The position numbers and the translations under genes are program-made. Shown here piece by piece: positions 2,187-62,189 of a stretch of DNA of 64,000 nt. Positions within the stretch are counted from its first letter, which is position 1. Each line of letters starts with the position of its first letter. The notes beneath the pieces are model-generated. The model searched no databases, was not told the origin of the DNA, and worked only from the letters and a program-made list of their open reading frames with translations. The stretch is taken from positions 1,178,001-1,242,000 of the forward strand of contig NZ_JALGBI010000001.1 of the NCBI RefSeq assembly GCF_022809125.1. The letters are read 5' to 3'. Origin of the DNA: Variovorax terrae. GTDB taxonomy: Bacteria > Pseudomonadota > Gammaproteobacteria > Burkholderiales > Burkholderiaceae_C.

Positions 2187-2995
2187 TGCGGCTTGACCTC
2201 GTCCTTGAGCGCGGCCAGCGCCATCTTCTCCACCAGGCCGGGCGCCACGAGCTTCATGAAGCGGCCGAGCCGGCCCCTGGCCGTCATCACCACCTCGCGC
2301 TGGCGCCGCTCCATGCCCTCGAGGATCAGGCGCGCGCATTCCTCGGTGCTCATGGCGTCGTCCTCCTTGAGCCCGCTGGCACCGGCGGCCACGCCCTGGG
2401 CGTTGTAGCCGCGGTAGCGGATCTGGGTGGCCACCACGCCGGGGTAGGCCGTGGTGACACTCACGCCCGCGCCCCTGAGTTCGGCGCGCAGCGCCTCGAA
2501 GAAGCCGGTCATGGCGAACTTGGTGGCGCTGTAGGCGGTGCGCCCCGGGACGCCCATCAGGCCGGCCAGCGAAGACACGGCGACGATCTGGCCGCGCGTG
2601 GCCTTCAGGTGGGCGAGCGCCGCGTGGGTGCACCAGACGCTGCCCCACAGGTTGACGCGCATCAGGTTCTCGTACCAGGCCAGGTCCTCGGCCCGCACGT
2701 CCGAGAACAGCGCCTGGGCCGACACGCCCGCGTTGTTGATGAGCGCATCGAGCCGGCCGAAGGCCTGCATGGCGGCCGCGATCAGGGCGCGGCATTGGGC
2801 CTCGACCGAGACGTCGGTCTTCACCACCAGCACCTGCGCGCCCAGCTCGCGGCATTGCGCGGCCACGGCCTGCAGCGCCTCCTCGTTGCGGGCCGCCAGC
2901 ACCAGGGCCGCGCCGGCCCCGTGCGTGCGCGCCAGTTGCCGCGCCATCTCGGCGCCGATGCCATCCGACGCACCGGTGATCACTATGGTTTTCAT
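2183..2995 (-). CDS. SDR-family NAD(P)-dependent oxidoreductase
   Basis: Short-chain dehydrogenase of 270 residues, probably cytoplasmic. The cofactor motif TGASDGIG is at 7-14, NNAG at 87-90, and the catalytic Ser141, Tyr155 and Lys159 are present (YSATK). The C-terminal extension with several basic residues (RGRLGRFMKLVAPG) resembles classical SDRs annotated as fatty-acyl or steroid reductases, but the substrate cannot be called. The start is set at 2995 because it places the glycine motif at the usual distance; the frame is open 40 codons further upstream without family-like sequence. The first codons (ATGAAAACCATAG) are also the terminal dyad of a dispersed repeat copy. The stop overlaps the methyltransferase TTG. 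Confidence 0.9.
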   Translation of the reverse strand: MKTIVITGASDGIGAEMARQLARTHGAGAALVLAARNEEALQAVAAQCRELGAQVLVVKTDVSVEAQCRALIAAAMQAFGRLDALINNAGVSAQALFSDVRAEDLAWYENLMRVNLWGSVWCTHAALAHLKATRGQIVAVSSLAGLMGVPGRTAYSATKFAMTGFFEALRAELRGAGVSVTTAYPGVVATQIRYRGYNAQGVAAGASGLKEDDAMSTEECARLILEGMERRQREVVMTARGRLGRFMKLVAPGLVEKMALAALKDEVKPH

Positions 2996-3035
2996 AGCAG
3001 GAAATGACCTATCTGCCTGGACCTCAGGCCAAAAA
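2983..3035 (-). repeat. 55-bp dispersed repeat, copy 1 (overlaps SDR start)
   Basis: On the minus strand this reads GGCC..GAGGTCC..GGTCATTTCC then the dyad TGCTATgaaaaccATAG. This matches the consensus inferred from the eleven copies in the window: AAATCGGCC, GATGTCCTTGTC, GGTCATTT, then TGCTATnnATTnnATAGCA. The dyad contains the ATG of the SDR gene. Confidence 0.7.
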
Positions 3036-3050
3036 CGTCTGAACCAGGCC

Positions 3051-3176
3051 CTAAAAGCAGGCCCAGACCTGGTTGGCGAGTGTGACCAGGAAGTCGGGCC
3101 GCGTGTACAGGGCAAACACTGCCAGCAGCACCGCCAGCGCGGTGCCGTAGGCCAGCAGCTTGCGGCCTGTTGTCAT
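3051..3176 (-). CDS. 41-residue single-pass membrane protein
   Basis: Small reading frame: ATG at 3176, TAG at 3051. The product starts MTTGRKLLAYGTALAVLLAV and ends with a short soluble tail finishing NQVWACF. It has a positively charged N-terminus, one hydrophobic helix (about residues 7-24), then TRPDF, the layout of a bitopic small membrane protein. It lies 55 bases upstream of the SDR gene on the same strand. I recognise no function. The organised charge/helix/aromatic-tail pattern, high-GC codon use and convincing start and stop make it more than chance. A Cys-Phe carboxy end is visible. Confidence 0.6.
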   Translation of the reverse strand: MTTGRKLLAYGTALAVLLAVFALYTRPDFLVTLANQVWACF

Positions 3177-3248
3177 CTCAGCGCTCCATGAGCGCTACGC
3201 GCCGCCCGCAGCGGCTCCAAAGGCCGCGGAGCAGGCCATGCCAGTGCA

Positions 3249-3412
3249 CCCGCGGAACCGGCTTGGCCGGGCCGCTGGGTGAGCCCCCTTGAGGGGGCTG
3301 AGAGGCCGCGGCTCCAGACCTGCCTGCGCAGGTCTGGACGGACTCGAAGAGCCACTGCCTCTGGCAGCGGCATCACGCCGCAGGCGCTTCGGGGGTGTTT
3401 CATTTCAAGCCC
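3249..3412. repeat. GC-rich intergenic repeat with stacked hairpins, copy 1
   Basis: Fills most of the 228-bp gap 3177-3404. It begins CGCGGAACCGGCTTGGCCGG and ends near GGCGCTTCGGGGGTG; the same two blocks recur at 35384-35463. Between them are perfect stems: AGCCCCC/GGGGGCT (3282-3288 with 3293-3299) and CCAGACCTGC/GCAGGTCTGG (3314-3323 with 3328-3337). Similar elements are common in Comamonadaceae intergenic DNA as I recall. It may act as a transcript end for the MFS gene. No gene is seen here. Confidence 0.65.
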
Positions 3413-4622
3413 CCTGGGGCGCGGTGCGCCGGATCGCGTTTTCCTTGACCGGCAGGTTGACCAGGGCCGCGAAGATGCCCAGCGCGATCGCGATGTACCA
3501 GACCACGTCGTAGCTGCCGGTGCGGTCATACAGGTAGCCGCCCAGCCAGACGCCCATGAAGCTGCCGATCTGGTGGCTGAAGAACACGAAGCCGCTCAGC
3601 ATCGACAGGTGCGCCACGCCGAAGATCTGCGCCACCACCGCATTGGTGGGCGGCACGGTGGACAGCCACAGCAGGCCCATCACGGCCGAGAACAGGTAGA
3701 CGCTCGCCGGCGACAGCGGCGCCAGCAGGAACAGGCTGATGGCCACGGCGCGTGCGAAATAGATGAAGGCCAGGATGTTCTTCTTGGCCAGCCGCTGGCC
3801 CAGCGTGCCCGCGATGTAGGTGCCGAACACGTTGAACAGGCCGATCAGCGCCAGCGCGTAGCTGGCCACCTGGGGCGACAGGCCCTTGTCCTTGAGGTAG
3901 CTGGGCATGTGCACGCCGATGAACACCACCTGGAAGCCGCAGACGAAGTAGCCCGCCATCAGCAGCTGGAAGCTCGGGTACTTGAAGGCTTCGCGCAGCG
4001 CCTGGCCGATGGTCTGCTCGCGCCGCGGCGCGGCGCCGCCGGCGAAGCCCGGCTCGCGCAGGCCCCAGGCCAGCGGCACCATGAGCAGGGCGGCGAAGCC
4101 CAGCAGCGTCAGCGCTTGCTGCCAGCCGAAGCTGCTGATCAGGAAGCCCTCGGTCGGCACCATCAGGAACTGGCCGAATGAGCCGGCCGCCGCCGCGATG
4201 CCCATGGCCCAGGAGCGCTTGTCGGCCGCCACGTTGCGGCCGATCACGCCATAGATCACCGCGTAGGTGGTGCCGGCCTGCGCCGCGCCAATCAGCACGC
4301 CCGCCGTGCCCGCGAACAGCAGCGGCGTGGGCGAATGCGCCATGCCCATCAGGCCCAGCGCATAGAGCAGCGCGCCGCCGATGATGACGCGGAAGGCGCC
4401 GAAGCGGTCGGCCAGCATGCCCGCGAAGATGCCGGCGCAGCCCCAGGTCAGGTTCTGCAGGGCGATGGCGAAGGCGAAGGTCTCGCGGCTCCAGCCGTTG
4501 GCCTGGGTCACCGGCTGGAGCCAGAGCCCGAAGCCGTGGCGGATGCCCATGGACAGGGTCACGATGGCCGCGCCGCAGACCAGCAGCTGGGCCATCGACA
4601 GTTGTTTGGGTTGTGAACTCAT
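3405..4622 (-). CDS. MFS transporter
   Basis: Inner-membrane major facilitator of 405 residues with about twelve hydrophobic helices and a short cytoplasmic N-terminus (MSSQPKQLSMAQ). The helix1-2 region RHGFGLWLQPVTQANGWSRE and loop ADRFGAFR (the MFS loop 2-3 motif) are visible, with a charged central loop (REPGFAGGAAPRREQ) between the two six-helix halves. This N-terminal pattern is typical of MFS members annotated as YbfB/OFA or monocarboxylate-type transporters in betaproteobacteria. The substrate cannot be inferred from context. The gene is divergent from parE; the 113-bp gap must hold both promoters. Confidence 0.92.
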   Translation of the reverse strand: MSSQPKQLSMAQLLVCGAAIVTLSMGIRHGFGLWLQPVTQANGWSRETFAFAIALQNLTWGCAGIFAGMLADRFGAFRVIIGGALLYALGLMGMAHSPTPLLFAGTAGVLIGAAQAGTTYAVIYGVIGRNVAADKRSWAMGIAAAAGSFGQFLMVPTEGFLISSFGWQQALTLLGFAALLMVPLAWGLREPGFAGGAAPRREQTIGQALREAFKYPSFQLLMAGYFVCGFQVVFIGVHMPSYLKDKGLSPQVASYALALIGLFNVFGTYIAGTLGQRLAKKNILAFIYFARAVAISLFLLAPLSPASVYLFSAVMGLLWLSTVPPTNAVVAQIFGVAHLSMLSGFVFFSHQIGSFMGVWLGGYLYDRTGSYDVVWYIAIALGIFAALVNLPVKENAIRRTAPQGA

Positions 4623-4722
4623 GCGCAGAATGTAGCGATTTCGGGCCGAGGCTGCAGGCGGCCTCCGGGGTGTGCCGGCCAGGTGGCTGTATTTGTATCC
4701 AGTGGTTTGGGCGGCAAGCCAC

Positions 4723-4735
4723 TACAATCCGCCCC
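4723..4735 (+). promoter_or_regulatory. -10 element of parE, probably leaderless transcript
   Basis: TACAAT at 4723-4728 ends only 7 bases before the parE ATG (4736). With normal spacing, transcription would begin at or within a base or two of the start codon, and no ribosome-binding site is seen before the ATG. No strong -35 is visible 16-18 bases upstream. This is inference from position only. Confidence 0.4.
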
Positions 4736-6718
<1,983 letters not shown>

Positions 6719-6740
6719 GCGCACGCGAGAACCGCCCCGC

Positions 6741-7796: not shown

Positions 7797-8326
7797 GCAG
7801 CCGTGTGCGCCTGCGCCCCACCATGCAGAGCGACCTGGAGTTCGTGCTCTCGCTCGAGCAGGACCAGGCCAACCAGCCCTTCATCACGCCCTGGGAGCGC
7901 ACTCAGCACGAGGCGGCGATCCGCTTTCCCGATTTCCGGCACTTCATCATCGAGGGCGGCCCGGACCTGGACGCCGAGGGCTTCCTGATCCTGATCGGCT
8001 GTCGCAGCCCGCACCAGTCGCTGGAGCTCAAGCGCATGGTGGTGCGCACGCAGGGCGCGGGCTTCGGCCGCGCCGCCCTGCGCGTGGCCAAGAAGGTGGC
8101 GTTCGACGACCTCGGCGCGCACCGGCTGTGGCTGGACGTGAAGGCCCACAACACCCGGGCCCAGGCGCTGTACGACAGCGAGGGCTTCGTGGTCGAGGGC
8201 CGCCTGCGCGAGGCGGTGCGCGTGGCTCGCTCGGAAGGCGGCGGCTACGACTCGCTGATCGTCATGTCCATGCTGCAGCCCGAATTCGCCGCCCGACGCG
8301 GCCTCGGCCGGGAGCTCTTCGCATGA
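7793..8326 (+). CDS. GNAT-family N-acetyltransferase (RimJ/RimL-like)
   Basis: Acyl-CoA-dependent acetyltransferase, 177 residues. It begins with the family-typical RLRPTMQSDLEFVLSLE. The acetyl-CoA-binding motif A region is ELKRMVVRTQGAGFGRAALR, with a GxG turn in place of the full R/QxxGxG/A. The late motif HRLWLDVKAHNTRAQALYDSEGF is diagnostic of the RimJ/L-type subfamily. Both ends overlap neighbours by ATGA (start 7793 with the deacetylase stop, stop 8326 with the transglycosylase start), so it belongs to the parE-parC operon. The acceptor substrate is unknown; pairing with a deacetylase-fold enzyme is suggestive only. Confidence 0.9.
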   Translation: MSSRVRLRPTMQSDLEFVLSLEQDQANQPFITPWERTQHEAAIRFPDFRHFIIEGGPDLDAEGFLILIGCRSPHQSLELKRMVVRTQGAGFGRAALRVAKKVAFDDLGAHRLWLDVKAHNTRAQALYDSEGFVVEGRLREAVRVARSEGGGYDSLIVMSMLQPEFAARRGLGRELFA

Positions 8327-9180
8327 GCCGATTCTGGCATCAAATAGGCTGGAGGTCCTTGCTGGCGGGTCTTGGATTGCTATCAATTTTGCAGCAGCCG
8401 GCGCATGCCGACGTGTGGGGCTATGTCGACGAGAAGGGCGTGGCGCATTTCGCCGCGGAGCGCGAGGACGAGCGCTACGAGCTGTTCTTCCGCGGCGACG
8501 AGAGCTTCGACACCGCCCAGGGCGTGGCCCCCGGCGCGGCGGCCCGGGGCGCGGGCACGCCGCGCGCGGTCAGCGTGCCGACCGCCGGGCCCCGGCTGAT
8601 CGCCTTCTTCGAGGTGTCGCCGAGCTACAAGGCGATCAAGCATGTGCTGCGCGAGGCCTCGGACCTGCACAAGATCGACTACGAGCTGCTGCAGGCGCTG
8701 ATCGCCACCGAATCCGGCTTCGACACCGGCGCCGTCTCGCCCAAGGGCGCGGTCGGGCTGATGCAGATCATGCCCGCCACGGCGCAGCGCTACGGCGTGC
8801 AGGGCGACCGCACCGCCCCGGTCGAGAAGAAGCTGACCGATCCGCGTATCAACATCCGCGCCGGCGCGCGCTACCTGAGCGACCTGATCGCCATGTTCCC
8901 TGGCCGGCTCGAGCTGGCGCTGGCCGCCTACAACGCGGGCGAGGGCGCGGTGCAGCGCGCGGGCAACCAGATTCCCAATTACAAGGAAACGCAGAACTAT
9001 GTGAAGACGGTGATGCAGCTCTACACCATGCTGAAGCCGCCCTCCATGATGTCCACGCCCCGGCGCGTGCGCATGGAGCTGCCGGGCAGCGTGCCCGGGC
9101 GCGGCAACATGGTGGCCCCCCTGGGCGGCGCGGTCAGCGCGGCGCCCGTGTCTTCCGAATTCAAGATTGAACGCGACTAG
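8323..9180 (+). CDS. Periplasmic lytic transglycosylase (SLT domain)
   Basis: Peptidoglycan lytic transglycosylase of 285 residues. An N-terminal signal peptide (SLLAGLGLLSILQQPAHA, cleaved near residue 29) is followed by a DUF4124-like start (DVWGYVDEKGVAHF). The C-terminal SLT domain has the catalytic glutamate in ALIATESGFDTGAVSPKGAVG, then LMQIMPATAQRYG, GARYLSDL and ALAAYNAGEGAV. The start overlaps the GNAT stop (ATGA). Most of the signal peptide (about residues 7-25) is encoded by a copy of the dispersed 55-bp repeat (8342-8396). Confidence 0.94.
   Translation: MSRFWHQIGWRSLLAGLGLLSILQQPAHADVWGYVDEKGVAHFAAEREDERYELFFRGDESFDTAQGVAPGAAARGAGTPRAVSVPTAGPRLIAFFEVSPSYKAIKHVLREASDLHKIDYELLQALIATESGFDTGAVSPKGAVGLMQIMPATAQRYGVQGDRTAPVEKKLTDPRINIRAGARYLSDLIAMFPGRLELALAAYNAGEGAVQRAGNQIPNYKETQNYVKTVMQLYTMLKPPSMMSTPRRVRMELPGSVPGRGNMVAPLGGAVSAAPVSSEFKIERD
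8342..8396 (+). repeat. 55-bp dispersed repeat, copy 2 (inside transglycosylase signal peptide)
   Basis: Reads AAATAGGCTGGAGGTCC, TTGCTGGCGGGTC, then TTGCTATCAATTTTGCAGCA, in register with the consensus of the other copies. It lies wholly inside the reading frame and encodes the h-region of the signal peptide (LLAGLGLLSIL). Confidence 0.75.
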
Positions 9181-13415: not shown

Positions 13416-16037
13416 TCAGGCGCCGACGCTGTAGCGGGCCTCGCCCGAGTGCGTGAAGTACAGCGAGCCGATCTCGTCGGACACGCGGTAGGCCGCCGCG
13501 GTGCACTGCTGCAGCCGCTCGACCAGCGCGCGGTGGGCGCCGTCGGCGCCGGGCTCGCACAGCGGCGCCAGCGCCCAGGCGCCGGGGTCGGGCACGCCCA
13601 GGGCCAGTTCGCTCAGCTCGCCCGGCGCGCTGCCGGCCAGCTTGGCCAGGCGCCCGCGCAGGGTCTGCGCCACCCAGCCGAGCGAGCGCGGGTTGTCGCG
13701 GTCGAGCACCAGCAGGTCGAGCAGGGCGGCCACGTCGCGCCGCTGCTGGTACTGCGCGTGGAAGGTGATGGTGCTGTCGAACAGCGAGATCATGGCCTCG
13801 AAGCCGCCGTCGCCGTGCACCGAGCCGGTCTCGAAGCCCTCGGCCAGCGCCGAGGCGAGGAAGCCCAGGCGCTCCAGGTGGCGGCCGATGGACAGCAAGC
13901 GCCAGCCGTCGTCGCGCGTCATGCGGTCGGTTTGCGCGCCGGTCATGGCCGCCATGTAGCTGCTGGCCGATTCGAGCACGCGCAATGCCTCCACCGGGGA
14001 GTAGTCGCCGTCCTCGGCCTGCCCGGCGCAGCGCAGGAAGAACTCGTGCTCGGCGCGCACGATCACGTTCCACTGCTCGGGCGACAGCCGCTCGCGCACG
14101 GCCGAGGCCGCGCCCTTGAGCGCGCGCAGGTTGTAGCCCACGCTGGTGACGTCGGCATCGCCCAGGCCCGCGATCAGCGAGCGTTCGAACACGCGCCGCG
14201 CCTGGGCGGCCGACGGCACGCCGGGCCGCACCAGGGCATTGCCGGTGGCCAGCGCGTTGAGCCAGGCCAGCAGCGGCGGCGAGGACTGGTCTTCGCCATT
14301 GAGGCATTCGAGCGTGAGGCGCGCCAGGCGCAGGGTGTTCTCGGCGCGCTCGGTGTAGCGACCCAGCCAGAACAGGTTCTCGGCGGCACGGCTGGTGACC
14401 AGGCGCTTGCGGTGCGCCAGCGCGGCCGGCGTCAGCGGCGGCTGCAGCATCGTGGTGTGGTCGACCTCGCCGCGCGTGAGCGCCCAGGCGTCGGCGCTGC
14501 TGCCGCCGCGCTGCATGGAGGCGATCTCCTCACCCGCGGTGGCGATGCGCACCAGCCCGCCGGGCAGCACGTGCCAGGACTGCGGGCCGTCGCACAGCGC
14601 GAACACGCGCAGCATGGCCGAGCGCGGCGCGATGCGCTCGTCCTGCCAGGTGGGCATCTGCGACAGCGGCAGGTAGGCCTGCACCGTGTGCTCGTCGCCC
14701 TGGCGCAGGATGCGGCCGCTCCATTCGTCGAGCCCGCGGCGCGACAGCGTGCGCCCCACCACGGCATTGAACGATCCGTGGCTGGCCGAGCCCGGGTAGG
14801 TGGGCTTGATCACGCAGTCGCGCAGCTGCGGCAGCACCTCCTCCAGGGCCGCGCGCTCGCCGCACCACCAGGTGGGCAGGGCGGGCAGCAGCAGCTCCTC
14901 GCCCAGCAGGTGGCGCGACAGCGCCGGCAGGAAGCCCAGCAGCGCGGTGGATTCGAGGAAGGCCGAGCCTGGCGCGTTGGCCACCAGCACGTTGCCCGCG
15001 CGGATGGCCTGCAGCAGCCCGGGCACGCCCAGGGTGGAGTCGGAGCGCAGCTCCAGAGGATCGAGGTACTGGTCGTCCAGCCGCTTGAGCAGGCCGTGCA
15101 CCGGCTCCAGGCCCTGCAGGGTCTTGAGGTACAGGCGCTGGTCGCGCACCGTGAGGTCGCTGCCCTCGACCAGCGTGAGGCCGAGGTAGCGCGCCAGGTA
15201 GGCGTGCTCGAAATAGGTTTCGTTGTAGGGGCCGGGCGTGAGCAGGGCGATGTGCGAGTCGGCGCCGGCCGGGCTCATCTGCTTGAGGCCATCGACCAGC
15301 GCGCGGTAGCTCGCGGCCAGGCGCTGCACCTGCATGGACTCGAAGGCCTGCGGAAACAGGCGCGAGGTGATGATGCGGTTTTCCAGCAGATAGCCCAGGC
15401 CCGAGGGCGCCTGGGTGCGCTGCGACACCACCCACCAGTTGCCGTCGGGGCCGCGCGCCAGATCGAAGGCCGCGATGTGCAGGTGTGTGCCGCCCACCGG
15501 CGGCACGCCATGCATGGCGCGCAGGTAGCCGGGATGGCCCTGCACCAGCGCCGCCGGCAGCAGGCCCTGGGCCAGCAGCTCCTGCGGGCCGTAGACGTCG
15601 GCCATCACGCGGTCGAGCACGCGCACGCGCTGCTGCACGCCGGCCTCGATCTGCTGCCAGCTCTCGGGCGAGAGGATCAGCGGAAACAGGTCGAGCGACC
15701 AGGGCCGCTGCGGGCCGTGGCGGTCGGCATAGACGTTGTAGGTGATGCCGTTGTCGCGCACCTGCCGCTCCAGGTTGGCGGTGCGGCGGTCCAGGTCGCC
15801 GAAGCCGTCGGTGCCAAGATGTTCGAAGAATTGGCTCCAGGTCCGCGCCAGCGGGTCATTTTCTGCTACTGATTTGGGAGCGCCCTGGCCATCGTCGCGG
15901 CGCTGCCCGCGCAGTTCGTCGTAGTGGCCGGGCGCGGCAGGAGCCGCCAGGGCCGAGGCCAACTGGGCGGGGGCTTCAAGCGCGCCGGCTTCGAAGAGGG
16001 AGGTGTTGTGTTTTTCCACTTGTCGCTGGATTGTCAC
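13416..16037 (-). CDS. Fused circularly permuted ATP-grasp / alpha-E domain protein
   Basis: 873-residue fusion. Residues about 60-540 are a circularly permuted type-2 ATP-grasp ligase (COG2308), with GLGYLLENRIITSRLFPQAF, LTPGPYNETYFEHAYLARYLG and CVIKPTYPGSASHGSFNAVVG. Residues about 545-865 are the all-helical alpha-E domain (COG2307), opening SRAAENLFWLGRYTERAENT. ATP-grasp members make carboxylate-amine bonds; this set is predicted to build or attach peptides. The frame begins at GTG 16037 with no clear ribosome-binding site; residues 1-55 are low-complexity, so a later start is possible. A repeat-like stretch encodes part of this N-terminus. Separate versions of both domains are at 25359 and 26886. 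Confidence 0.9.
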   Translation of the reverse strand: MTIQRQVEKHNTSLFEAGALEAPAQLASALAAPAAPGHYDELRGQRRDDGQGAPKSVAENDPLARTWSQFFEHLGTDGFGDLDRRTANLERQVRDNGITYNVYADRHGPQRPWSLDLFPLILSPESWQQIEAGVQQRVRVLDRVMADVYGPQELLAQGLLPAALVQGHPGYLRAMHGVPPVGGTHLHIAAFDLARGPDGNWWVVSQRTQAPSGLGYLLENRIITSRLFPQAFESMQVQRLAASYRALVDGLKQMSPAGADSHIALLTPGPYNETYFEHAYLARYLGLTLVEGSDLTVRDQRLYLKTLQGLEPVHGLLKRLDDQYLDPLELRSDSTLGVPGLLQAIRAGNVLVANAPGSAFLESTALLGFLPALSRHLLGEELLLPALPTWWCGERAALEEVLPQLRDCVIKPTYPGSASHGSFNAVVGRTLSRRGLDEWSGRILRQGDEHTVQAYLPLSQMPTWQDERIAPRSAMLRVFALCDGPQSWHVLPGGLVRIATAGEEIASMQRGGSSADAWALTRGEVDHTTMLQPPLTPAALAHRKRLVTSRAAENLFWLGRYTERAENTLRLARLTLECLNGEDQSSPPLLAWLNALATGNALVRPGVPSAAQARRVFERSLIAGLGDADVTSVGYNLRALKGAASAVRERLSPEQWNVIVRAEHEFFLRCAGQAEDGDYSPVEALRVLESASSYMAAMTGAQTDRMTRDDGWRLLSIGRHLERLGFLASALAEGFETGSVHGDGGFEAMISLFDSTITFHAQYQQRRDVAALLDLLVLDRDNPRSLGWVAQTLRGRLAKLAGSAPGELSELALGVPDPGAWALAPLCEPGADGAHRALVERLQQCTAAAYRVSDEIGSLYFTHSGEARYSVGA
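15828..15881 (+). repeat. 55-bp dispersed repeat, degenerate copy 4 (inside ATP-grasp N-terminus)
   Basis: Plus strand reads GAATTGGCTCCAGGTCC, GCGGGTCATTTTCTGCTACT, then GATTTGGGAGC, matching the order of repeat blocks but with a decayed dyad. It underlies codons for the residues around AENDPLARTWSQFF. The left half may match partly by chance, since W..FF is conserved in the family. Confidence 0.45.
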
Positions 16038-22901: not shown

Positions 22902-25300
22902 AGAACACGGGGCATCAGGAGGGCGCCGCATGCGGCGGGCTGGAGGCGGCGCTGGCGGGCTTCGTGGCCGGCACGGCCCTGCAGCTGCAGCAGCCGGCCC
23001 TGTGGCCCTGGCCGGTCTATGCCGCTCTGGTTCTGGCGGCGCTGGCGCTGGGAGCTTGGCTCGTCATGCGCGCGGGGGCAGGGCGTGGCCGCCGCCGCTG
23101 GGCGTGGACGGCCCTGGTGGCTTTCGCGGCACTGGCGTTTGGCGGCTGCGGCCTGCGCGCGCTGGTCTTCACGGCCGGCGCGCTGCCGCCGGCGCTGGAG
23201 GGGCGCGACCTGGCCGTCACGGGCGTGGTGGCCGCCATGCCGCAGCGCAACGAGAGCGGCCTGCGCTTCAGGCTCGCGGTGGAATCGGCCCGGCTCGATG
23301 GCGTGCCTATCCGCCTGCCGCCGCTGCTGGAGCTCGGCTGGTATGGCGACGAGCGCGCGCAGCGCCAGCCTGGCGACCTGAAGGCCGGCGAGCGCTGGCA
23401 GATGACGGTGCGCCTCAAGGCGCCGCACGGCGGCAGCAACCCGCATGGCTTCGACTACGAGCTGTGGCTGTGGGAGCAGGGCGTGCAGGCCACCGGCTAT
23501 GTGCGCAGCGGCGCGAAGGACCCGCCGCCCCGGCGCCTGGGCCAGACCTGGCGGCACCCGGTGGAGCGCGCCCGGCAGGCGGTGCGCGACGAGGTGTTCG
23601 AGCGCGTGGACGACCGCAAGAGCGCCGGCGTGCTGGCCGCATTGATCACGGGCGACCAGAACGCGATCGACCGCGCCGACTGGGACGTCTTTCGCGCCAC
23701 CGGCGTGGCCCACCTCATGAGCATCTCGGGCCTGCACGTGACCATGTTCGCCTGGGTCGCGGCCGGGCTGGTGGGCTGGCTGTGGCGGCGCTCGGCCCGC
23801 CTGTGCCTGCTGTTCCCCGCGCCCGGCGCGGCCTGGATCGGCGGCGTGCTGCTGGCCGGGGCCTATGCCGTGTTCAGCGGCTGGGGCGTGCCCGCGCAGC
23901 GCACGCTCTGGATGCTGGCCACGGCGGCGCTGCTGCGCCTGAGCGGCCGGCGCTGGCCCTGGCCGCAGCAATGGCTGCTGGTCATGGCCGTGGTGGTGGC
24001 GGTCGATCCCTGGGCGCTGCTGCAGGCCGGCTTCTGGCTCAGCTTCGTCGCGGTCGGCGTTCTGTTTGCTACGGATTCAGGAGCAGGAAATGACCGCCCG
24101 ACAAGGACATCGGGCCGATTTCTTTCATTTTTTCGGGAACAGTGGGTGATCACGCTGGCCTTGACGCCGCTGACCCTGCTGCTGTTCAGCCAGGTCTCGC
24201 TGGTGGGCCTGCTGGCCAATGCGCTGGCGATTCCCTGGGTGACGCTGGTGGTCACGCCGCTGGCCCTGCTCGGTGTGCTGTGGGCGCCGCTGTGGGGGCC
24301 GGCCGCCTGGGCGCTGCAGGCGCTGGCCGTGTTCCTGCAATGGCTGGCCGGCTGGCCCTGGGCCACGCTGTCCACCGCGACGCCGGCCCTGTGGGCCTCG
24401 GCCGCGGGCGTGCTGGGCGGGCTGCTGCTGGCGATGCGCCTGCCCTGGAGCCTGCGCGCGCTGGGCCTGCCGCTGCTGCTGCCCGTGCTGCTGTGGCAGG
24501 CGCCGCGGCCGGCGCCGGGCCAGTTCGAGCTGCTGGCGGCCGACATCGGGCAGGGCAATGCCGTGATCGTGCGCACCGCCGGCCACACCCTGGTGTTCGA
24601 CGCCGGGCCGCGCTTCTCGCGCGAGAGCGATGCCGGCCACCGCGTGCTGGTGCCGCTGCTGCGCGCGCTGGGGGAACGGGTGGACACGCTGGTGCTGAGC
24701 CATCGCGACAGCGACCATACGGGCGGGGCCGCCGCCGTGCTCGCGATGCAGCCGCAGGCGGCGCTGCTCAGTTCCATCGAGGCCGGCCACGAGTTGCAGG
24801 CGCTGCGCCCGGCCACCCGCTGCGTGGCGGGCCAGAGCTGGGACTGGGATGGCGTGGCGTTCGAGGTGCTGCACCCGCAGGCCGGCGACTACGAAGCGCC
24901 GGCCAAGCCCAACGCCCTGAGCTGCGTGCTGCGCCTCTCGAACGGCGCCGCCACCGCGCTGCTCGCGGGCGACATCGAGGCGCCGCAGGAAGCGCGGCTG
25001 GTGCAGGACGCCGCCGCGCTGGAGGCCGATGTGCTGCTGGTGCCGCACCACGGCAGCCGCACCTCCTCCAGCGCCGCGTTCCTGGACGCCGTGCAGCCGC
25101 AGATCGCGCTGGTGCAGGCCGGCTACCGCAACCGCTTCGGCCACCCGGCACCGGCGGTGCTGGAGCGCTATGCGCAGCGCGACGTGCGCGTGGTGGATTC
25201 CGTGCACTGCGGGGCCGCCACCTGGAACTCCGACCAGCCGCAACGGCTGCGCTGCCAGCGCGAGGCCGGGCGGCGGTACTGGCATCACCTCGTGCCCTGA
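22898..25300 (+). CDS. comEC: ComEC/Rec2 DNA-uptake channel protein
   Basis: Inner-membrane channel that passes single-stranded DNA into the cytoplasm during transformation. 800 residues: N-terminal helices, the soluble DUF4131-type domain (about 90-240), the Competence helical domain (HLMSISGLHVTMFAW onward, about 270-530) and a C-terminal metallo-beta-lactamase-like domain with LSHRDSDHTGG (about 605) and LVPHHGSRTSSS (about 712). HRDSDH replaces the usual HADxDH, keeping the three metal-type ligands. About 20 residues at 390-410 (TDSGAGNDRPTRTSGRF) are encoded by an embedded dispersed repeat and form a hydrophilic loop between membrane helices. Alone; other competence genes are not in the window. 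Confidence 0.93.
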   Translation: MQNTGHQEGAACGGLEAALAGFVAGTALQLQQPALWPWPVYAALVLAALALGAWLVMRAGAGRGRRRWAWTALVAFAALAFGGCGLRALVFTAGALPPALEGRDLAVTGVVAAMPQRNESGLRFRLAVESARLDGVPIRLPPLLELGWYGDERAQRQPGDLKAGERWQMTVRLKAPHGGSNPHGFDYELWLWEQGVQATGYVRSGAKDPPPRRLGQTWRHPVERARQAVRDEVFERVDDRKSAGVLAALITGDQNAIDRADWDVFRATGVAHLMSISGLHVTMFAWVAAGLVGWLWRRSARLCLLFPAPGAAWIGGVLLAGAYAVFSGWGVPAQRTLWMLATAALLRLSGRRWPWPQQWLLVMAVVVAVDPWALLQAGFWLSFVAVGVLFATDSGAGNDRPTRTSGRFLSFFREQWVITLALTPLTLLLFSQVSLVGLLANALAIPWVTLVVTPLALLGVLWAPLWGPAAWALQALAVFLQWLAGWPWATLSTATPALWASAAGVLGGLLLAMRLPWSLRALGLPLLLPVLLWQAPRPAPGQFELLAADIGQGNAVIVRTAGHTLVFDAGPRFSRESDAGHRVLVPLLRALGERVDTLVLSHRDSDHTGGAAAVLAMQPQAALLSSIEAGHELQALRPATRCVAGQSWDWDGVAFEVLHPQAGDYEAPAKPNALSCVLRLSNGAATALLAGDIEAPQEARLVQDAAALEADVLLVPHHGSRTSSSAAFLDAVQPQIALVQAGYRNRFGHPAPAVLERYAQRDVRVVDSVHCGAATWNSDQPQRLRCQREAGRRYWHHLVP
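24067..24127 (-). repeat. 55-bp dispersed repeat, copy 5 (inside comEC)
   Basis: Minus strand reads GAAAGAAATCGGCCCGATG, TCCTTGTCGGGCGGTCATTT, then CCTGCTCCTGAATCCGTAGC. It is full length and in frame with comEC, adding about 20 hydrophilic residues in a loop. Confidence 0.8.
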
Positions 25301-31218: not shown

Positions 31219-32301
31219 TCAACGCGGCAGCGCCGACTTGACCGCCTGCCCCAGCTCGATCACGGCCATCGCGTAGTAGCTGCTCCAGTTGTAGCGCGTG
31301 ATCACGTAGAAGTTCTCGGTGCCGGCCACGTAGCTCGGTTCGTCGCCGCCGTTCTGCAGCTCGATCAGCGCCAGCGGGCCCGGGTGCTGCAGCGCTTCGC
31401 CTTCCAGCACGGCGCCCTTGGCCATGAAGCTGGCGACGCTGAAGGTGGGCAGGATGTCGGGCAGCAGCAGCGTCTCCTTGTCCAGGCGCTCGGCATCGAA
31501 GCGCACCGGGTAGTGGGTCGGCATGCCGGGCTGCCAGCCGAAGGCCTTGAAGTAGTTGGCCACCGAGCCGATCACGTCGGACGGGCTGTTGACGAGGTCG
31601 ATCCGGCCGTCGCCGTCGTTGTCGACCGCGTACTTGACCCAGCTCGACGGCATGAACTGCGGCATGCCCATGGCGCCGGCGTAGCTGCCCAGCGGCGCCA
31701 TCGGGTCGCCGCCGATGCGGCTTTCCTGGCTCAGGAATTGCTCCAGCTCGCCCTTGAAGAACGCGGCGCGTTCGCGCGCGCGCGGGTGCGAGGTGGGGAA
31801 GTCGAAGGCCAGCGTGGTGAGCGCGTCCATCACGCGGAAGTTGCCCATCTGCTGGCCGTAGATGGTCTCCACGCCGATGATGCCGACGATGATCTCGGCC
31901 GGCACGCCGTACTCTTGCTCGGCCCGCGCCAGCGTGCCGGCATGGGCTTGCCAGAAGCGCACGCCGGCCGCGATGCGGATCGGTTCGACGAAGCGGCTGC
32001 GGTAGACGCGCCAGTTCTTGGGCGTGCCCGCGGGCGGCGGCTGCATCAGGCGCGCCGCCGCCGGCAGGTAGCGCGCCTGGCCGACGGCCTGGCGCACCCA
32101 GTCGCGGTCGAGGTCGCGGCGCTGCGCGATGTCGTCGGCCTCGCGCATCACGTCCTCGCGCGTGGCATAGGCGGGGCCGGCGGCGGGCTGGCGCGCCGAG
32201 ACCGGAGTCTTTTTGGCACCTTTGGCGGCGAGGGTCCCCGTGCAGAGGACGCAGGATGCTATCAAAACGGTAGCAACCCGGAGGAGTTTCTTGGATGTCA
32301 T
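31219..32301 (-). CDS. mltB: Membrane-bound lytic murein transglycosylase B
   Basis: 360-residue lytic transglycosylase of the MltB/SLT_2 family, cleaving the MurNAc-GlcNAc bond with 1,6-anhydro product. Catalytic glutamate Glu145 in GIIGVETIYGQQMG; also AGAMGMPQFMPSSW and VDNDGDGRIDL. The N-terminus (KKLLRVATVLIASC) offers a lipobox (IASC, Cys17); an alternative is signal peptidase I cleavage after LAA. A dispersed repeat copy encodes residues about 9-24, including the lipobox. The ATG overlaps the TgpA stop (ATGA), so it is the last gene of the MoxR-DUF58-TgpA unit. Confidence 0.93.
   Translation of the reverse strand: MTSKKLLRVATVLIASCVLCTGTLAAKGAKKTPVSARQPAAGPAYATREDVMREADDIAQRRDLDRDWVRQAVGQARYLPAAARLMQPPPAGTPKNWRVYRSRFVEPIRIAAGVRFWQAHAGTLARAEQEYGVPAEIIVGIIGVETIYGQQMGNFRVMDALTTLAFDFPTSHPRARERAAFFKGELEQFLSQESRIGGDPMAPLGSYAGAMGMPQFMPSSWVKYAVDNDGDGRIDLVNSPSDVIGSVANYFKAFGWQPGMPTHYPVRFDAERLDKETLLLPDILPTFSVASFMAKGAVLEGEALQHPGPLALIELQNGGDEPSYVAGTENFYVITRYNWSSYYAMAVIELGQAVKSALPR
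32229..32277 (+). repeat. 55-bp dispersed repeat, copy 6 (inside mltB signal sequence)
   Basis: Plus strand reads GAGGGTCCCCGTGCAG, then GGATGCTATCAAAACGGTAGC. On the coding strand the dyad encodes the hydrophobic core and lipobox (VATVLIASC). Confidence 0.65.
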
Positions 32302-34292: not shown

Positions 34293-34335
34293 GCGGGGCG
34301 GCCTCCGTGCCGGGGTTGGGAGCCAAATTTCAAGC

Positions 34336-34391
34336 AAAATCGGCCAAAGGTCCTTGTCGGGTGGTCATTCATTGCTATTGAATTGATAGCA
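34336..34391 (+). repeat. 55-bp dispersed repeat, copy 7
   Basis: Intergenic copy between the DUF58 and TgpA genes: AAAATCGGCCAAAGGTCC, TTGTCGGGTGGTCATTC, then the dyad TTGCTATTGAATTGATAGCA, one of the best preserved. Confidence 0.85.
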
Positions 34392-34419
34392 AAAGAAGCG
34401 GCTTGCCGGTCGGCCGGGG

Positions 34420-57666: not shown

Positions 57667-57750
57667 TTTTCTTGAATGCGGAAAGCCGCACATCGGCGGC
57701 CCTGGCCAACGACGCGCCGCACCGGGCGCTTGCCGGGGAAGGCACCCGCG

Positions 57751-58839
57751 ATGGATGAAGTCCGCATCCCCGTGCAGGCCCTCAAGGGCCGTGGCGCCGC
57801 CTCGCGGCTGGCGCACCGTTTCGAGAAGGACGCGCGCGCCGCGTTCGACGACGGATGGGGCACGCTCGAGGAAGGCGCCATGGCGCCGTTGCCGCCGCTG
57901 CAGACCGAGGTGATCTGGGAAGACGCCAGAAGCATCATCACCGGCAACGATTCGCCCGACATCTACTTCGAGCGTTCGATCAACCCCTACCGCGGCTGCG
58001 AGCATGGCTGCATCTACTGCTATGCGCGCCCCACGCACAGCTACCTCGGCCTGTCGCCGGGGCTGGATTTCGAGACCAGGATCATCGCCAAGCGCAACAT
58101 CGCGCAGGTGCTGCGCGCCGAGCTCGCGAGGAAAAGCTACCGGCCCGCCCACCTCGCCATCGGCACCGTGACCGACTGCTACCAGCCGGTGGAGCGCGAG
58201 CTGCGCCTCACGCGCGCCGTGATCGAGCTGCTGCACGAAACCCGCCACGCCTTCGGCCTCGTCACCAAATCGAGCGCGGTGGAGCGCGACCTCGACCTGC
58301 TGGCGCCGATGGCGGCAGAGCGGCTCGCGGCGGTCTACGTCACCATCACCACGCTCGACGGCGAGCTCGCGCGCAAGCTCGAGCCGCGCGCGGCCGCGCC
58401 GCACCGGCGGCTGCGCACCCTGCGCACGCTGGCCGAGCAGGGCGTGCCGGTGGGCGTGAGCGTGTCGCCGCAGATTCCCTTCGTCAACGAGGACATGGAG
58501 CAGGTGCTGGAGGCCGCCTGGGACGCCGGCGCGCGCAGCGCCTTCTACAACGTGATCCGCCTGCCGTGGGAGCTGAGCCCGCTGTTCCGCGAGTGGCTGG
58601 CGCTGCACTACCCGCTGCGCGCGGACCGCATCATGGCGCGCATCCAGGAGATGCGCGGCGGCAAGGACTACGACAGCGATTTCGCCACGCGCATGAAGGG
58701 CAGCGGCCTGTGGGCCGAGCTGATCCGCCAGCGCTTCGAGAAGGCCACGGCCCGGCTGGGCTACAACCGCGCGCGCATCGCGCTCGACCTGCGGGCCTTC
58801 CGCCCGCCGGGCGGCGCGGGGCAAGGCCACCTGTTCTGA
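57751..58839 (+). CDS. PA0069-family radical SAM protein (spore photoproduct lyase-like)
   Basis: 362-residue radical SAM enzyme. The 4Fe-4S cluster motif Cys-x3-Cys-x2-Cys is GCEHGCIYC (Cys83, Cys87, Cys90), preceded by ERSINPYRG. KGRGAASRLAHRFE at the N-terminus is the family hallmark. Homologues are related to DNA-repair spore photoproduct lyase, and from memory PA0069 of Pseudomonas aeruginosa belongs to its LexA regulon; the LexA box upstream here agrees. ATG 57751 follows GGGGAAGG; an in-frame ATG at 57676 is possible. Substrate not established. Confidence 0.9.
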   Translation: MDEVRIPVQALKGRGAASRLAHRFEKDARAAFDDGWGTLEEGAMAPLPPLQTEVIWEDARSIITGNDSPDIYFERSINPYRGCEHGCIYCYARPTHSYLGLSPGLDFETRIIAKRNIAQVLRAELARKSYRPAHLAIGTVTDCYQPVERELRLTRAVIELLHETRHAFGLVTKSSAVERDLDLLAPMAAERLAAVYVTITTLDGELARKLEPRAAAPHRRLRTLRTLAEQGVPVGVSVSPQIPFVNEDMEQVLEAAWDAGARSAFYNVIRLPWELSPLFREWLALHYPLRADRIMARIQEMRGGKDYDSDFATRMKGSGLWAELIRQRFEKATARLGYNRARIALDLRAFRPPGGAGQGHLF

Positions 58840-58846
58840 TCGGGTA

Positions 58847-58880
58847 TTGACGCGGGTCAAATTTGGTTGATATTATCAAC
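58847..58880 (+). promoter_or_regulatory. Promoter with palindromic operator of the Bug/Rieske operon
   Basis: TTGACG (58847-58852), 18-base spacer, TATTAT (58871-58876). The perfect inverted repeat GTTGATATTATCAAC (58866-58880) covers the -10, as expected for a repressor; the TTGATA-type half-sites are reminiscent of GntR/FCD regulators. No regulator gene is adjacent in the window. Confidence 0.65.
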
Positions 58881-58905
58881 AAAACAAACCCGTTGGAGAC
58901 AACCC

Positions 58906-59910
58906 ATGACCCACGACGCCTTCGCTTCCTCCCCCGGCCGCCGCCGCGCGCTGCAGGCCCTGGCCGCCACCGCGGCCGCCGGCCTGGCCTGGCCGCTGCG
59001 AGCCCAGGACGCCTTTCCCTCCAAGCCGATCCGCGTGGTCGTGCCGTTCGCGCCCGGCGGCGCGATCGACGTGGCCGTGCGCGCCATGGCCGAGAAGGTG
59101 GCCACCCTGCTGAACCAGCCGGTGGTGGTGGACGCCAAGCCCGGCGCCGCCACCATCGTCGGCGCGGATGCCGTGGCCAAGGCCGCGCCCGACGGCTACA
59201 CGGTGCTCATCACCACCAGCTCCACCACCATCAACAACGCCGCGGTCTACAAGAAGCTGCCCTACGACCCGGCCACCAGTTTCGCGCCCGTGACCATGGT
59301 CTCGCTGGGCAGCGTGATGTTCGCCGGCCCGGCCACGGCGCCCTACAGCAACCTCAAGGAATTCGCGGCCTGGGCCAAGGCGCAGAACCGGCCGATCAGC
59401 TTCGGCTCCTGGGGCGTGGGCTCCTCCGCACACCTGTTCGGCGAATTGCTGCGCACCCGCTACGGCCTGAACATGCAGCACGTGGCCTACAAGGGCGACG
59501 TTGCCGCGCTGACCGACGTGCGCGGCGGCGTGCTCGACACCACCTTCTCCAGCCCGGTCAGCGCGCGGCCGCTGGTGAGGGCCGGCAGCATCAAGGCGCT
59601 GGGCATGACCGGCCCGCGCCGCTCGGGCGGCCTGCCCGAGCTGGCCACCTTCGGCGAGCAGGGCTTTGCCGGCTTCGAGCTCGCGGGCTATGTGGCCGTG
59701 TACGTGCCTGCCGGCACGCCGCGCCCCGTCATCGACCGGCTCAACAAGGCTTTCGTGGCGGCCATCCGCTCGCCCGACGTGACACAGCGCCTGATCGACC
59801 AGGGGCAGGACCCGATCGCCGGCACGCCCGAAGAACTGCAGGCCATCTACAACCACGACTTTCCCCTGTGGACCGGCATGCTCAAGGCCGCCGGCATCCA
59901 GCCGGAGTAA
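58906..59910 (+). CDS. Bug/TctC-family periplasmic substrate-binding protein
   Basis: 334-residue solute-binding protein. The N-terminus SSPGRRRALQALAATAAAGLAWPLRAQ has a twin-arginine-like start but without the full Tat motif; cleavage after LRA. Family blocks: FPSKPIRVVVPFAPGGAIDVAVR, VVDAKPGAATIVGADAVAKAAPDGYTVL, and VPAGTPRPVIDRLNKAF. First gene of a unit with a ferredoxin and a Rieske oxygenase, so its ligand is likely the oxygenase substrate or a related aromatic acid (inference). ATG 58906 is preceded by a TTGGAGA-type site. Confidence 0.93.
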   Translation: MTHDAFASSPGRRRALQALAATAAAGLAWPLRAQDAFPSKPIRVVVPFAPGGAIDVAVRAMAEKVATLLNQPVVVDAKPGAATIVGADAVAKAAPDGYTVLITTSSTTINNAAVYKKLPYDPATSFAPVTMVSLGSVMFAGPATAPYSNLKEFAAWAKAQNRPISFGSWGVGSSAHLFGELLRTRYGLNMQHVAYKGDVAALTDVRGGVLDTTFSSPVSARPLVRAGSIKALGMTGPRRSGGLPELATFGEQGFAGFELAGYVAVYVPAGTPRPVIDRLNKAFVAAIRSPDVTQRLIDQGQDPIAGTPEELQAIYNHDFPLWTGMLKAAGIQPE

Positions 59911-59916
59911 ACCCGC

Positions 59917-60204
59917 ATGACGCAAGCCACGGCCGACAAGGCCTTTCAGGTGGTGCTGGCCCGCTCGGGCCGCACCGTGGCGGTGGGCGAGGGCGAGAGC
60001 ATCCTCGATGTGCTGCTGCTCGAGGGGCTCGACGTGCCCAGCTCCTGCCAGCAGGGCATCTGCGGCACCTGCGAGACGCGGGTGCTGGCCGGCACGCCCG
60101 ACCACCGCGACCTGCTGCTCAGCGACAGCGAGAAGGCCAGCGGCAAGACCCTGCTGATCTGCTGCTCGCGCAGCCATACCGACACCCTGACCCTGGACCT
60201 CTGA
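59917..60204 (+). CDS. Stand-alone 2Fe-2S plant-type ferredoxin
   Basis: 95-residue ferredoxin. Cysteine pattern Cys44-x4-Cys49-x2-Cys52 and a distal Cys82 (or 83). SCQQGICGTCETRVLAGTPDHRD is the sequence style of the C-terminal ferredoxin domain of class IA oxygenase reductases (phthalate or vanillate type), but the flavin and NAD domains are absent. It probably feeds electrons to the Rieske oxygenase encoded one base after its stop; the reductase must come from elsewhere. Gap to the Bug gene is 6 bases. Confidence 0.92.
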   Translation: MTQATADKAFQVVLARSGRTVAVGEGESILDVLLLEGLDVPSSCQQGICGTCETRVLAGTPDHRDLLLSDSEKASGKTLLICCSRSHTDTLTLDL

Positions 60205-60205
60205 C

Positions 60206-61411
60206 ATGAACGCCCGCCAAGACCCCCGACCGATCATCCCCATCCGCAACGCCTACGAGCTGCCCGCGCCGACCTCGCGCGACGACCTCACGCGCGTGGG
60301 CCGCGGCACGCCCATGGGCGAGCTGCTGCGCCGCTACTGGCACCCCGTGGGCCTGTCCACGGACGCTGGCGACACGCCGCGCGAGGTGCAGGTGCTGGGC
60401 GAGACGCTGATCCTGTTTCGCGCCGGCAACGGCGAGCCCGGCCTGCTGTACCCGCGCTGCGCGCACCGCGGCACCTCGCTGATCTACGGCAAGGTCGAGG
60501 ACGACGGCATCCGCTGCTGCTACCACGGCTGGAAGTTCGGCCCGCAGGGCCAGTGCCTGGACCAGCCCTGCGAGCCCGAGGGCGGCAAGATGCGCCACAA
60601 GGTGCAGCAGCCAGGCTACTCGGTGGCCGAGCGCTATGGCCTGATCTGGACCTACATGGGCCCGCCGGACCGCCAGCCGGTGCTGCCGCAGTTCGAGCCG
60701 CTCGAACACCTGGCCGAGGGCGAGTTCCTGGAAGCCGACGACCAGAGCATCGGCGGCGGCGGCCCGGTGGTGATCGACTGCAACTGGCTGCAGCACTACG
60801 AGAACGTGGTCGACCCCTGGCACGTGCTGGTGCTGCACGGCACCTTCTCGGGCGTGCAGTTCACCGACATGATGCTGCGCGCGCCCACCATCAGTTTCGA
60901 CTACACGCCGATCGGCGTGAAGGTGACCTCGCTGCGCACGCTGGACGACGGCTCGATCTTCCGCCGCGTCACCGAGGCCAGCCTGCCCACGCTGCGCGTG
61001 GTGCCCAACCCGCGCGTGGGCCAGTACGCACGGGTGGAATCGATCGGCTTCGTGCTGCCGATGGACGACACGCATTTCCGCATCTACACCGTGGCGCGGG
61101 TGCGCGAGAAAGGCGAGCTCACCGCCTTCCGCTCGCGCCAGGGCGGCAAGCTGTGGCGCGAGCTCACGCCCGAGGAGCACCGCCAGTACCCGGGCGACTA
61201 CGAGGCGCAGGTGGGGCAGGGCGCCATCACCTTCCACTCGGAGGAGCACCTGGCTACCACCGACAAAGGCATCGCCATGCTGCGCCGCATGCTGGCGCAG
61301 CAGCTCGACGTGCTGGCCGCGGGGGGCAACCCGGCGGGGGTGAGCTTTGATCCGGCCGAGGCGATGATTCGCTTCGAGGCGGGGAATTTTCATGATCCGC
61401 TGGTGGGGTGA
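60206..61411 (+). CDS. Rieske 2Fe-2S aromatic ring-hydroxylating oxygenase alpha subunit
   Basis: 401-residue terminal oxygenase. Rieske centre: Cys85-Ala-His87 (YPRCAHRGTSL) and Cys104/His107 (GIRCCYHGWKFGPQG). Mononuclear iron ligands His206 and His211 with the bridging Asp203 lie in YENVVDPWHVLVLHGTFS. The length and single-subunit context resemble phthalate-4,5-dioxygenase or vanillate demethylase-type enzymes, which oxidise or demethylate aromatics; exact substrate unknown. Last gene of the operon, followed by repeat DNA. Confidence 0.93.
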   Translation: MNARQDPRPIIPIRNAYELPAPTSRDDLTRVGRGTPMGELLRRYWHPVGLSTDAGDTPREVQVLGETLILFRAGNGEPGLLYPRCAHRGTSLIYGKVEDDGIRCCYHGWKFGPQGQCLDQPCEPEGGKMRHKVQQPGYSVAERYGLIWTYMGPPDRQPVLPQFEPLEHLAEGEFLEADDQSIGGGGPVVIDCNWLQHYENVVDPWHVLVLHGTFSGVQFTDMMLRAPTISFDYTPIGVKVTSLRTLDDGSIFRRVTEASLPTLRVVPNPRVGQYARVESIGFVLPMDDTHFRIYTVARVREKGELTAFRSRQGGKLWRELTPEEHRQYPGDYEAQVGQGAITFHSEEHLATTDKGIAMLRRMLAQQLDVLAAGGNPAGVSFDPAEAMIRFEAGNFHDPLVG

Positions 61412-61456
61412 TCTGAGGCTTGAGATTTCTTGATTTCGAGGTGAAATCGGGCTGAT

Positions 61457-62117
61457 GTCCTTGTGCTGCGGTCGTTTCTTGCTATGGATTCAGGAGTTCT
61501 TTGCTCGTTGTCTTAGATGGCTGGCTCGCCTGCAGGCCGGGACTCGGCCCGGCGGCCGACTCACTTTTCTTTGCTTCGCCAAAGAAAAGTAAGCAAAAGA
61601 AAGGCGAGCCGGGTTCGTCGGCCCTGCGCTTCGCTTCGGGCACGCTGCGCTACTCGGGCCGGGCGGGAGGCTCAGAAACTCGCCCTGCGGGCTCAAACAT
61701 CTTCGCCTCTTTTCCCGCCCGCCCCTGCGTTGCTCGCCTCCTCACAACGGCGGTGGGAAACCAACTCCCCCTCTCATTGACAGGACGCGCCATGGCGCGT
61801 TCTTGTGGGCTTGGTTTTTTGTCTTTCTCCCCCACGCCGTCCTGGCATGGCCGAGCAGCGCAGCGGCAGGTGGATCAGGGCTGGCGTTGTTTGAGCGAAG
61901 CGAGTTTAGCCAGACCCCACCTGGCGCGAGCAGCGCAGGGAACCCCGAAGGGGCCATGACTGCGGCTCGCCTTTCTTTTGCTTACTTTTCTTTGGCGAAG
62001 CAAAGAAAAGTGAGTCGCCTGCCGGGGCGAGTCCCGGCTTGCAGGCGAGCCAGCCATCTAAGACAACGAGCAAAGAACTCCTGAATCGATAGCAAGAAAC
62101 GACCGTAGCACAAGGAC
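61457..62117. repeat. 661-bp inverted-repeat (MITE-like) element with two 55-bp repeat copies (10 and 11)
   Basis: Arms 61457-61611 and 61963-62117 are both 155 bp and match as an inverted repeat with about 6 mismatches by my count. Each arm has an inner stem ACTTTTCTTTG/CAAAGAAAAGT (61563-61590; 61984-62011) and an outer copy of the dispersed repeat (61442-61499 plus; 62076-62140 minus). The 351-bp centre has only short, unconvincing frames. The whole 778-bp gap 61412-62189 has no gene. No transposase or obvious target duplication is seen. Confidence 0.85.
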
Positions 62118-62189
62118 CTCTGGCCAATTGAGCCCAAAAAATCCAGAATTTCCAGCCCATGAGGCACAACAGCCCCACCTGCCAGCCGC

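Follow-up and report, generated by a model that had tools for sequence, protein, structure and literature searches.

Two families of bacteria are known to mark their DNA for recognition during natural transformation: the DNA uptake sequences (DUS) of Neisseriaceae are 10-12 bp long, while the uptake signal sequences (USS) of Pasteurellaceae span about 30 bp, combining a core with A/T blocks about one helical turn apart, and lie in both coding and non-coding DNA. Biased uptake coupled to recombination has also been described for the Pasteurellaceae. In the Neisseriaceae such a process, biased uptake and then recombination, is known, and the sections on DUS dialects present them as over-represented in genes and spacers, divided into genus and species dialects, built of a constant core and a variable remainder, and free of any inserted element (PMC3630211). 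Here we describe a repeat of about 68 bp that is present in eleven copies in a 64,000-nucleotide stretch of the Variovorax terrae genome (contig NZ_JALGBI010000001.1, positions 1,178,001 to 1,242,000; hereafter the window) and resembles DUS in each of these respects. It differs from them in its length, its two dyads and its copy number (hundreds against thousands), and it is rarely paired, whereas DUS often form inverted pairs at terminators. The likeness lies in sequence features, and the uptake role of the motif is one that we infer. With USS it has in common a core with A/T blocks at about one helical turn and its presence in coding and non-coding DNA; it is longer, belongs to another taxon, and has two dyads, one of which is exchangeable between dialects. 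The motif is best explained as a candidate DNA-uptake signal for self-recognition in natural transformation, grown in place site by site, a proposal that we hold to be about as likely as not.

One fragment of the motif and a possible second one have been in print since 2017, when the spaced pairs GCTTAT(N)5AAGCG of Acidovorax ebreus and ATAGCT(N)22CAAAAG of Polaromonas naphthalenivorans were listed as unexplained in a survey whose relevant passages assign them no function (PMC5217627). The first equals, in sequence and spacing, a dialect dyad described below (that of genome G015 and A. facilis), and the same convergent-gene bias as in our motif was reported (44 convergent, 4 divergent and 59 co-oriented of 107). 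Of all genomes in the survey, Rhodoferax ferrireducens has the most motif pairs. In those passages they figure as fragments from single genomes, with no dialects, orthology or in-place origin. In the main texts of the open literature we found neither the motif described as a whole nor an uptake sequence assigned to Comamonadaceae; we also found no earlier report of the joining of the parts into one motif, the dialects, the in-place origin or the uptake proposal.

Anatomy, copy number and placement

The first-pass annotation had listed eleven copies of a unit of about 55 bp with blocks in a shared order. A 61-position model (R1) built from ten of the window copies scores these at 43.7-56.7 bits, and the remaining copy, at 32229, is partial (17.1 bits) and rises to 20.9 bits when the model is retrained on the genome sample described below; all eleven are confirmed by their scores, the last one weakly. 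Order and spacing of the blocks are fixed: the 98 sampled matches of at least 18 bits can all be aligned gap-free, and 97 of the copies have complete flanks. The repeat is thus real, but its length had to be corrected: because of an additional T-rich block upstream, the conserved unit is about 68 bp long. The copies, and the gene that harbors the best-scoring one, are as follows.

2980..3046, minus strand: copy overlapping the start of a short-chain dehydrogenase/reductase (SDR) oxidoreductase gene (2183-2995, minus strand); 37.7 bits with the retrained model, 43.7 bits with R1
8331..8397, plus strand: copy at the 5' end of a lytic-transglycosylase-like gene; 34.5 bits
12384..12450, plus strand: intergenic copy; 51.9 bits
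15817..15883, plus strand: copy inside the gene at 13416-16019 (minus strand); 39.1 bits
22898..25300, plus strand: comEC, coding for the DNA internalization-related competence protein ComEC/Rec2 (TIGR00361, 362 bits, cut-off 190)
24066..24132, minus strand: copy inside comEC, on the opposite strand, with the top score in the window; 53.7 bits
32210..32276, plus strand: weak intergenic copy; 20.9 bits with the retrained model, partial at 17.1 bits with R1
34326..34392, plus strand: intergenic copy; 51.9 bits
48198..48264, minus strand: intergenic copy; 39.1 bits
57022..57088, plus strand: intergenic copy with convergent gene calls on either side; 45.5 bits
61433..61499, plus strand: copy at the left end of a composite of about 700 bp; 43.5 bits
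62075..62141, minus strand: inverted copy at the right end of the same composite; 44.6 bits

Six of these copies had been described as intergenic and five as intragenic; by our own gene calls, in which gene starts are uncertain and the copy at 8331 is counted as intergenic, the division is eight intergenic, two wholly within genes (15817 and 24066) and one, at 2980, overlapping a gene start. No NCBIfam family match was found for the protein of gene 13416-16019. The location of the top window copy within comEC, a DNA-uptake gene, is as far as can be told a coincidence. If the transglycosylase-like gene (8323-9180) begins at the ATG at 8323, a signal-peptide-like stretch would be encoded for the most part by its motif copy; the gene caller placed the start downstream, at 8413. 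The composite, which has arms of 184 nt and is bounded on either side by motif copies in inverted orientation, was found three times with unrelated flanks (window 61433-62141; L005, G000 C1 ~83539-84243; L041, 3510-4216), and in L005 its interior appears inverted relative to the other two.

Beyond the window, our sample comprises 40 stretches of 20 kb spread evenly over the 4.93-Mb genome, which with the window makes 864 kb in all. With a threshold of 15 bits, 98 non-overlapping copies were counted in it, of which the window has 11 and the other 800 kb have 87 (one per 5.8 kb against one per 9.2 kb), which extrapolates to about 540 per genome, in line with the hundreds that had been predicted. 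At E<=1 the same 864 kb gives 136 matches, as opposed to none in a single shuffled set (first-order Markov) and one, of 9.5 bits, in the reversed sequence, so that the excess over shuffled sequence is upheld; a search of the whole genome returned at least 150 matches (150 of 150 scored, of 4024 candidates). Such numbers do not by themselves imply mobility. The blocks run in the order T-rich block, AAAT(C)GGCC, A(T/G)GTCC, a variable stretch, CGGTC(A/G)TT and the dyad TGCTAT-N7-ATAGCA; GTCC, GG, GCT and the final AG are conserved at 95-100%, with several nearly free positions in between. The strongest correlation in the motif is at positions 17-18, after GTCC, where AG (33), TT (28) and GC (26) predominate among the 97 own copies.

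The arms of the dyads vary independently, paired cells being as frequent as the column make-up predicts, which makes the motif look like a DNA site instead of a folded RNA or single strand; of the roles first suggested, that of a protein-binding site is of the right class. When whole diagonals are considered, 4 of 200 permutations attain the pairing excess of the own genome and 10 of 200 that of the Polaromonas genome G047, on diagonals made of A/T blocks in the former, not of the dyad arms, and of A/T columns mixed with a few others in the latter.

The placement of the copies relative to genes is biased (98 own copies, filtered gene caller). Convergent-gene spacers hold 21 of them against a random share of 0.8% and tandem spacers 28 (5%), while divergent spacers hold 2 (2.1%), gene ends are overlapped by 13 (8%) and 34 are intragenic against a random share of 83%. 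An earlier caller gave 18 convergent and 2 divergent of 97; another (6 convergent and 11 divergent of 98) was set aside because its training on longest open reading frames mixes in false frames at 69% GC. The convergent share in G047 (13 of 62) and G020 (6 of 21) agrees with that of the own genome. The intragenic copies of the own genome are even in orientation, 18 on the strand of the gene and 16 on the opposite one. Copies are rarer in low-GC stretches (r=0.39 with GC), although the motif, at 42-60% GC, is A/T-richer than the genome. In the own-genome sample the nearest neighbors are 602 bp apart, and inverted pairs placed as terminators were not found; such pairs are common in DUS but do not belong to their functional definition.

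A location near stop codons and between convergent genes is what a bidirectional terminator or a stabilizer of mRNA 3' ends would favor, and the first-pass annotation had considered an mRNA 3' processing signal. The 34 intragenic copies on both strands speak against an RNA-level role, and so does the pairing of the arms at no more than independence; moreover, where an intrinsic terminator has a G+C-rich hairpin and then a run of T, the last dyad of the profile is A/T-rich and is followed by C/G-rich positions without a T-rich tract, and no Rfam family reaches its gathering threshold in the window. We accordingly consider an RNA-level signal very improbable.

Growth in place and dialects across the family

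For the comparison with orthologues we took the 22 best-scoring intragenic copies (33 of 97 copies lie in genes by the caller used here) and sought their orthologues in three genomes of other genera. Orthologues were obtained for 21 of the 22, and 19 of these 21 have at least one that is free of indels over the 23 residues concerned. The two that do not are window copy 15817, whose one orthologue is 20 residues longer there, and L070_19445. Among the 50 orthologue pairs with at least 45% identity, the net indel is zero in 39 and the orthologue differs by -5 to +12 residues in the rest, while the gap of about 22 residues expected from an insertion occurs in none. Twenty pairs have an orthologue lacking the dyad, 13 of them with zero net indel; the comEC copy, for instance, has two such orthologues, both aligning indel-free. 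Likewise, alignments with solved relatives run ungapped across the copy in LigA, EarP and the second site of PurL. Pulling the other way, the own protein is longer than its solved relative across the copy at PurL site 1 (+7 residues), ThiL (+7) and CobU (about +10), lengths compatible with a former insertion, by now eroded in part, at these sites. At the tested gene sites, then, the intragenic copies arose in place and are not insertions.

Of the 50 pairs, 30 have a dyad at the corresponding place in the other genus, where 0.38 would be expected, and this dyad is often flanked by that genus's own block, as in PurL, ThiL and CobU; two further genes of this kind we take to be ubiA and lpxK. The REP-like mobile element (repetitive extragenic palindrome) of the first-pass annotation, spread by a Y1 transposase like the REP-associated tyrosine transposases (RAYT), fails on the same evidence: tested gene sites show no insertion, and sites are held in common by genera that write them in different dialects. 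At gene sites the mobile reading is largely refuted.

Other features nevertheless recall REP elements, which, in the sections of PMC2817692 on their distribution, occur in hundreds of palindromic copies, mostly near the 3' ends of genes, with one RAYT-like gene in most genomes. Our motif has hundreds of copies and prefers 3' spacers, and a Y1 protein of the own genome scores just under the RAYT cut-off of 80 bits (79.2 bits; 80.5 bits in the genome search). Across genomes a strong Y1 match (E<=1e-15) is present in 47 of 54 carriers of the motif as against 72 of 146 motif-free genomes, figures that would allow a link between the two, but are uncorrected for kinship and count G204, G215 and G216, with neither match nor dyads, as motif-free. 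A copy follows the stop codon of the Y1 gene in G047 and another precedes the Y1 gene in G010, and G047 has three dyad pairs 67-68 bp apart (C1:54850/54917, C1:757504/757572 and C2:57283/57351); in the pair read in detail, the full dialect block is in the second unit and not in the first. Against this, the motif differs from REP in its arms, which show no covariation and pair only at expectation, and in not flanking its own RAYT-like gene: the nearest copy in the own genome is 4.6 kb away, adjacent copies occur only in G047 and G010 among the six genomes examined, each by its own model or dyads, and the linkage that had been suggested thus reduces to a single-copy gene without consistent flanking copies. 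Furthermore, in genus g21 both sampled species (G020 and G171) have 96 and 119 dyads and no good Y1 match. The GTAG or CGTC tag that REP/RAYT repeats bear at one end, according to PMC3733652, was not seen by inspection, without a formal test, in the motif consensus. Taken together, a REP-like origin appears improbable. Of 35 family genomes, 29 have a Y1_Tnp match, in most cases a single one. The RAYT-like gene of the own genome (about 235 aa; C2:424485-424892) belongs to a type that is present in most of the family genomes sampled, usually as one copy, persists whether or not the motif is there and has no regular flanking repeats. G015 has 20 Y1_Tnp matches, many of them identical IS200-like copies or fragments, in addition to a single RAYT-like gene.

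To map the spread of the motif we called a genome a carrier if it has at least eight strict dyads, with families as labeled in the genome collection. Within the family of the own genome 16 of 36 genomes are carriers, while each of 24 genomes from other families has 0-2 dyads, as do the reversed-pattern controls; in a wider sample 54 of 200 family genomes are carriers. From the named matches listed, among them Acidovorax, Polaromonas, Rhodoferax, Giesbergeria, Simplicispira, Variovorax and others, along with scattered unrelated organisms, we infer that the carriers are Comamonadaceae. Density ranges from one copy per 3.5 kb to one per 28.6 kb in seven genomes sampled.

TGCTAT-N7-ATAGCA is nearly constant, and both arms of the neighboring dyad change together between genera. 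The own dialect is ATGTCC/GGTCAT; that of G015 is AGCGCTTG/CAAGCGC, with similar ones in A. facilis and A. defluvii; that of G020 is AGCCGGCG/CGCCGGC; and that of G047 is TAGCCGGCGTATTTATTGCC. As G015 and G020 present the same half-site on both arms, recognition is probably symmetric. The dyad pattern in the dialect AGCGCTT/AAGCGC has 289 matches in A. facilis (11 in reversed-pattern controls), and A. defluvii has 279 pattern matches (5 in controls), counts that include some sites on both strands because the pattern is near-symmetric. A repeat private to one genus had been suggested by the strict model, which at E<=1e-5 found no match in 39 other genomes (136 candidates scored per genome), and was ruled out by the constant-dyad pattern across the family. 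The exact 20-mer of the own dialect has no match in the genome contig collection, from which the own genome itself may be absent.

Phage records gave no match, and 3 named Comamonadaceae stand among 55 plasmid records. In plasmid R751 (L392), a class 1 integron contains a DUF1010 frame (1397-1687) flanked by dfrB3 and qacE, of which 38 nt match the AGCGC dialect at 89.5%, and many enterobacterial plasmids have a similar match; the DUF1010 DNA of R751 may be of Comamonadaceae origin.

The published Beta-proteobacterial repeat element (BRE) has overlapping host families and is found in spacers and genes alike. It is set apart by description, not by sequence: the portions of PMC3110155 on Bordetella report 75-91 bp, 69% GC, frequent tandem arrays and at most 29 copies, as against about 68 bp and 42-60% GC for our motif, which is mostly solitary and counts hundreds of copies. 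Identity of the two seems to us extremely improbable.

Uptake signal or chromosomal protein site

The coordinated change of many orthologous sites requires a reader acting in trans and a drive, and the motif has the marks of an uptake sequence: hundreds of copies, in-place origin in genes and dialects between related taxa. The preference for convergent-gene spacers, the use of both strands in the own genome and the higher counts in GC-rich stretches also speak for this reading. Under the uptake proposal, a receptor linked to the type IV pilus would bind the motif on free DNA, pilus retraction would bring motif-bearing DNA in, and ComEC would transport a single strand on into the cytoplasm; recombination of the preferentially imported DNA would then enrich the motif genome-wide, and a change in receptor specificity would slowly re-write all sites into a new dialect. 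With its three spaced blocks, a T-rich/A-rich one, an exchangeable dialect dyad and a nearly constant dyad, the motif is a candidate for a third, independently evolved family of uptake sequences after those of Neisseriaceae and Pasteurellaceae, a placement that we hold to be about half probable.

As reported in the transformation sections of PMC4212676, transformation of Verminephrobacter depends on the type IV pilus and is reduced only about tenfold by excess salmon DNA, and A. temperans is transformed only by DNA of its own species, from which its authors infer selective uptake; recombination barriers could also cause this species effect. The sections of that paper on competence name no uptake signal, and they give A. 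facilis as competent in mineral medium and A. defluvii as not transformed (PMC4212676). Since A. defluvii carries the motif, yet was not transformed, the motif is no marker of competence under that assay. ComEC was matched in 35 of 35 family genomes, 32 of them above the cut-off; in G003, G016 and G044 it is in pieces below the family cut-off.

Several observations count against an uptake signal. The motif is far longer and sparser than the known uptake sequences, and ComEC is also present in motif-free genomes, while G003 has 22 strict dyads and comEC only in pieces in different frames. The AGCGC-dialect pattern occurs in eight viral contigs. G015 shows no avoidance of divergent spacers, which hold 7 of its 61 copies against a random share of 2.6% (8 of 61 are convergent), and in Polaromonas G047 intragenic copies favor the strand of the gene, 15 to 4. 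Among the points in favor, the evenness of the copies is marginal: their number per 20-kb stretch varies a little less than a Poisson process would allow (variance/mean 0.59, 95% range 0.62-1.49; 4 of 40 stretches empty). The peak of A/T content at a 10.1-bp period (permutation p=0.05) is likewise marginal and suggestive only. Finally, symmetric dyads fit a dimeric cytoplasmic protein at least as well.

The latter point leads to the alternative that the motif is the site of a putative intracellular, probably dimeric protein that organizes or marks the chromosome, in nucleoid structure, segregation or topology, and co-evolves with its sites in each genus. The half-site symmetry seen in the dialect dyads of G015 and G020, the three dyad-like parts about 23-25 bp apart in the consensus, the slightly even spacing and the A/T blocks near the helical period would all suit such a protein. 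However, selection would have had to re-write hundreds of sites per genus by a drive that is not known, a protein bound inside essential genes should be costly, and a candidate for it was not found. We hold a chromosomal protein site to be less likely than not.

Sequence-selective transformation has been reported in this family, for Verminephrobacter and Acidovorax (PMC4212676), and the motif offers a concrete candidate for the signal, with the dialects as built-in controls. Should the uptake proposal be right, genome-wide uptake signals would have evolved once more, in a longer and dyad-based form, and the dialects would predict which genera exchange DNA. Should the function be a different one, a motif that is re-written at orthologous sites between genera would still need a driving force that acts genome-wide.

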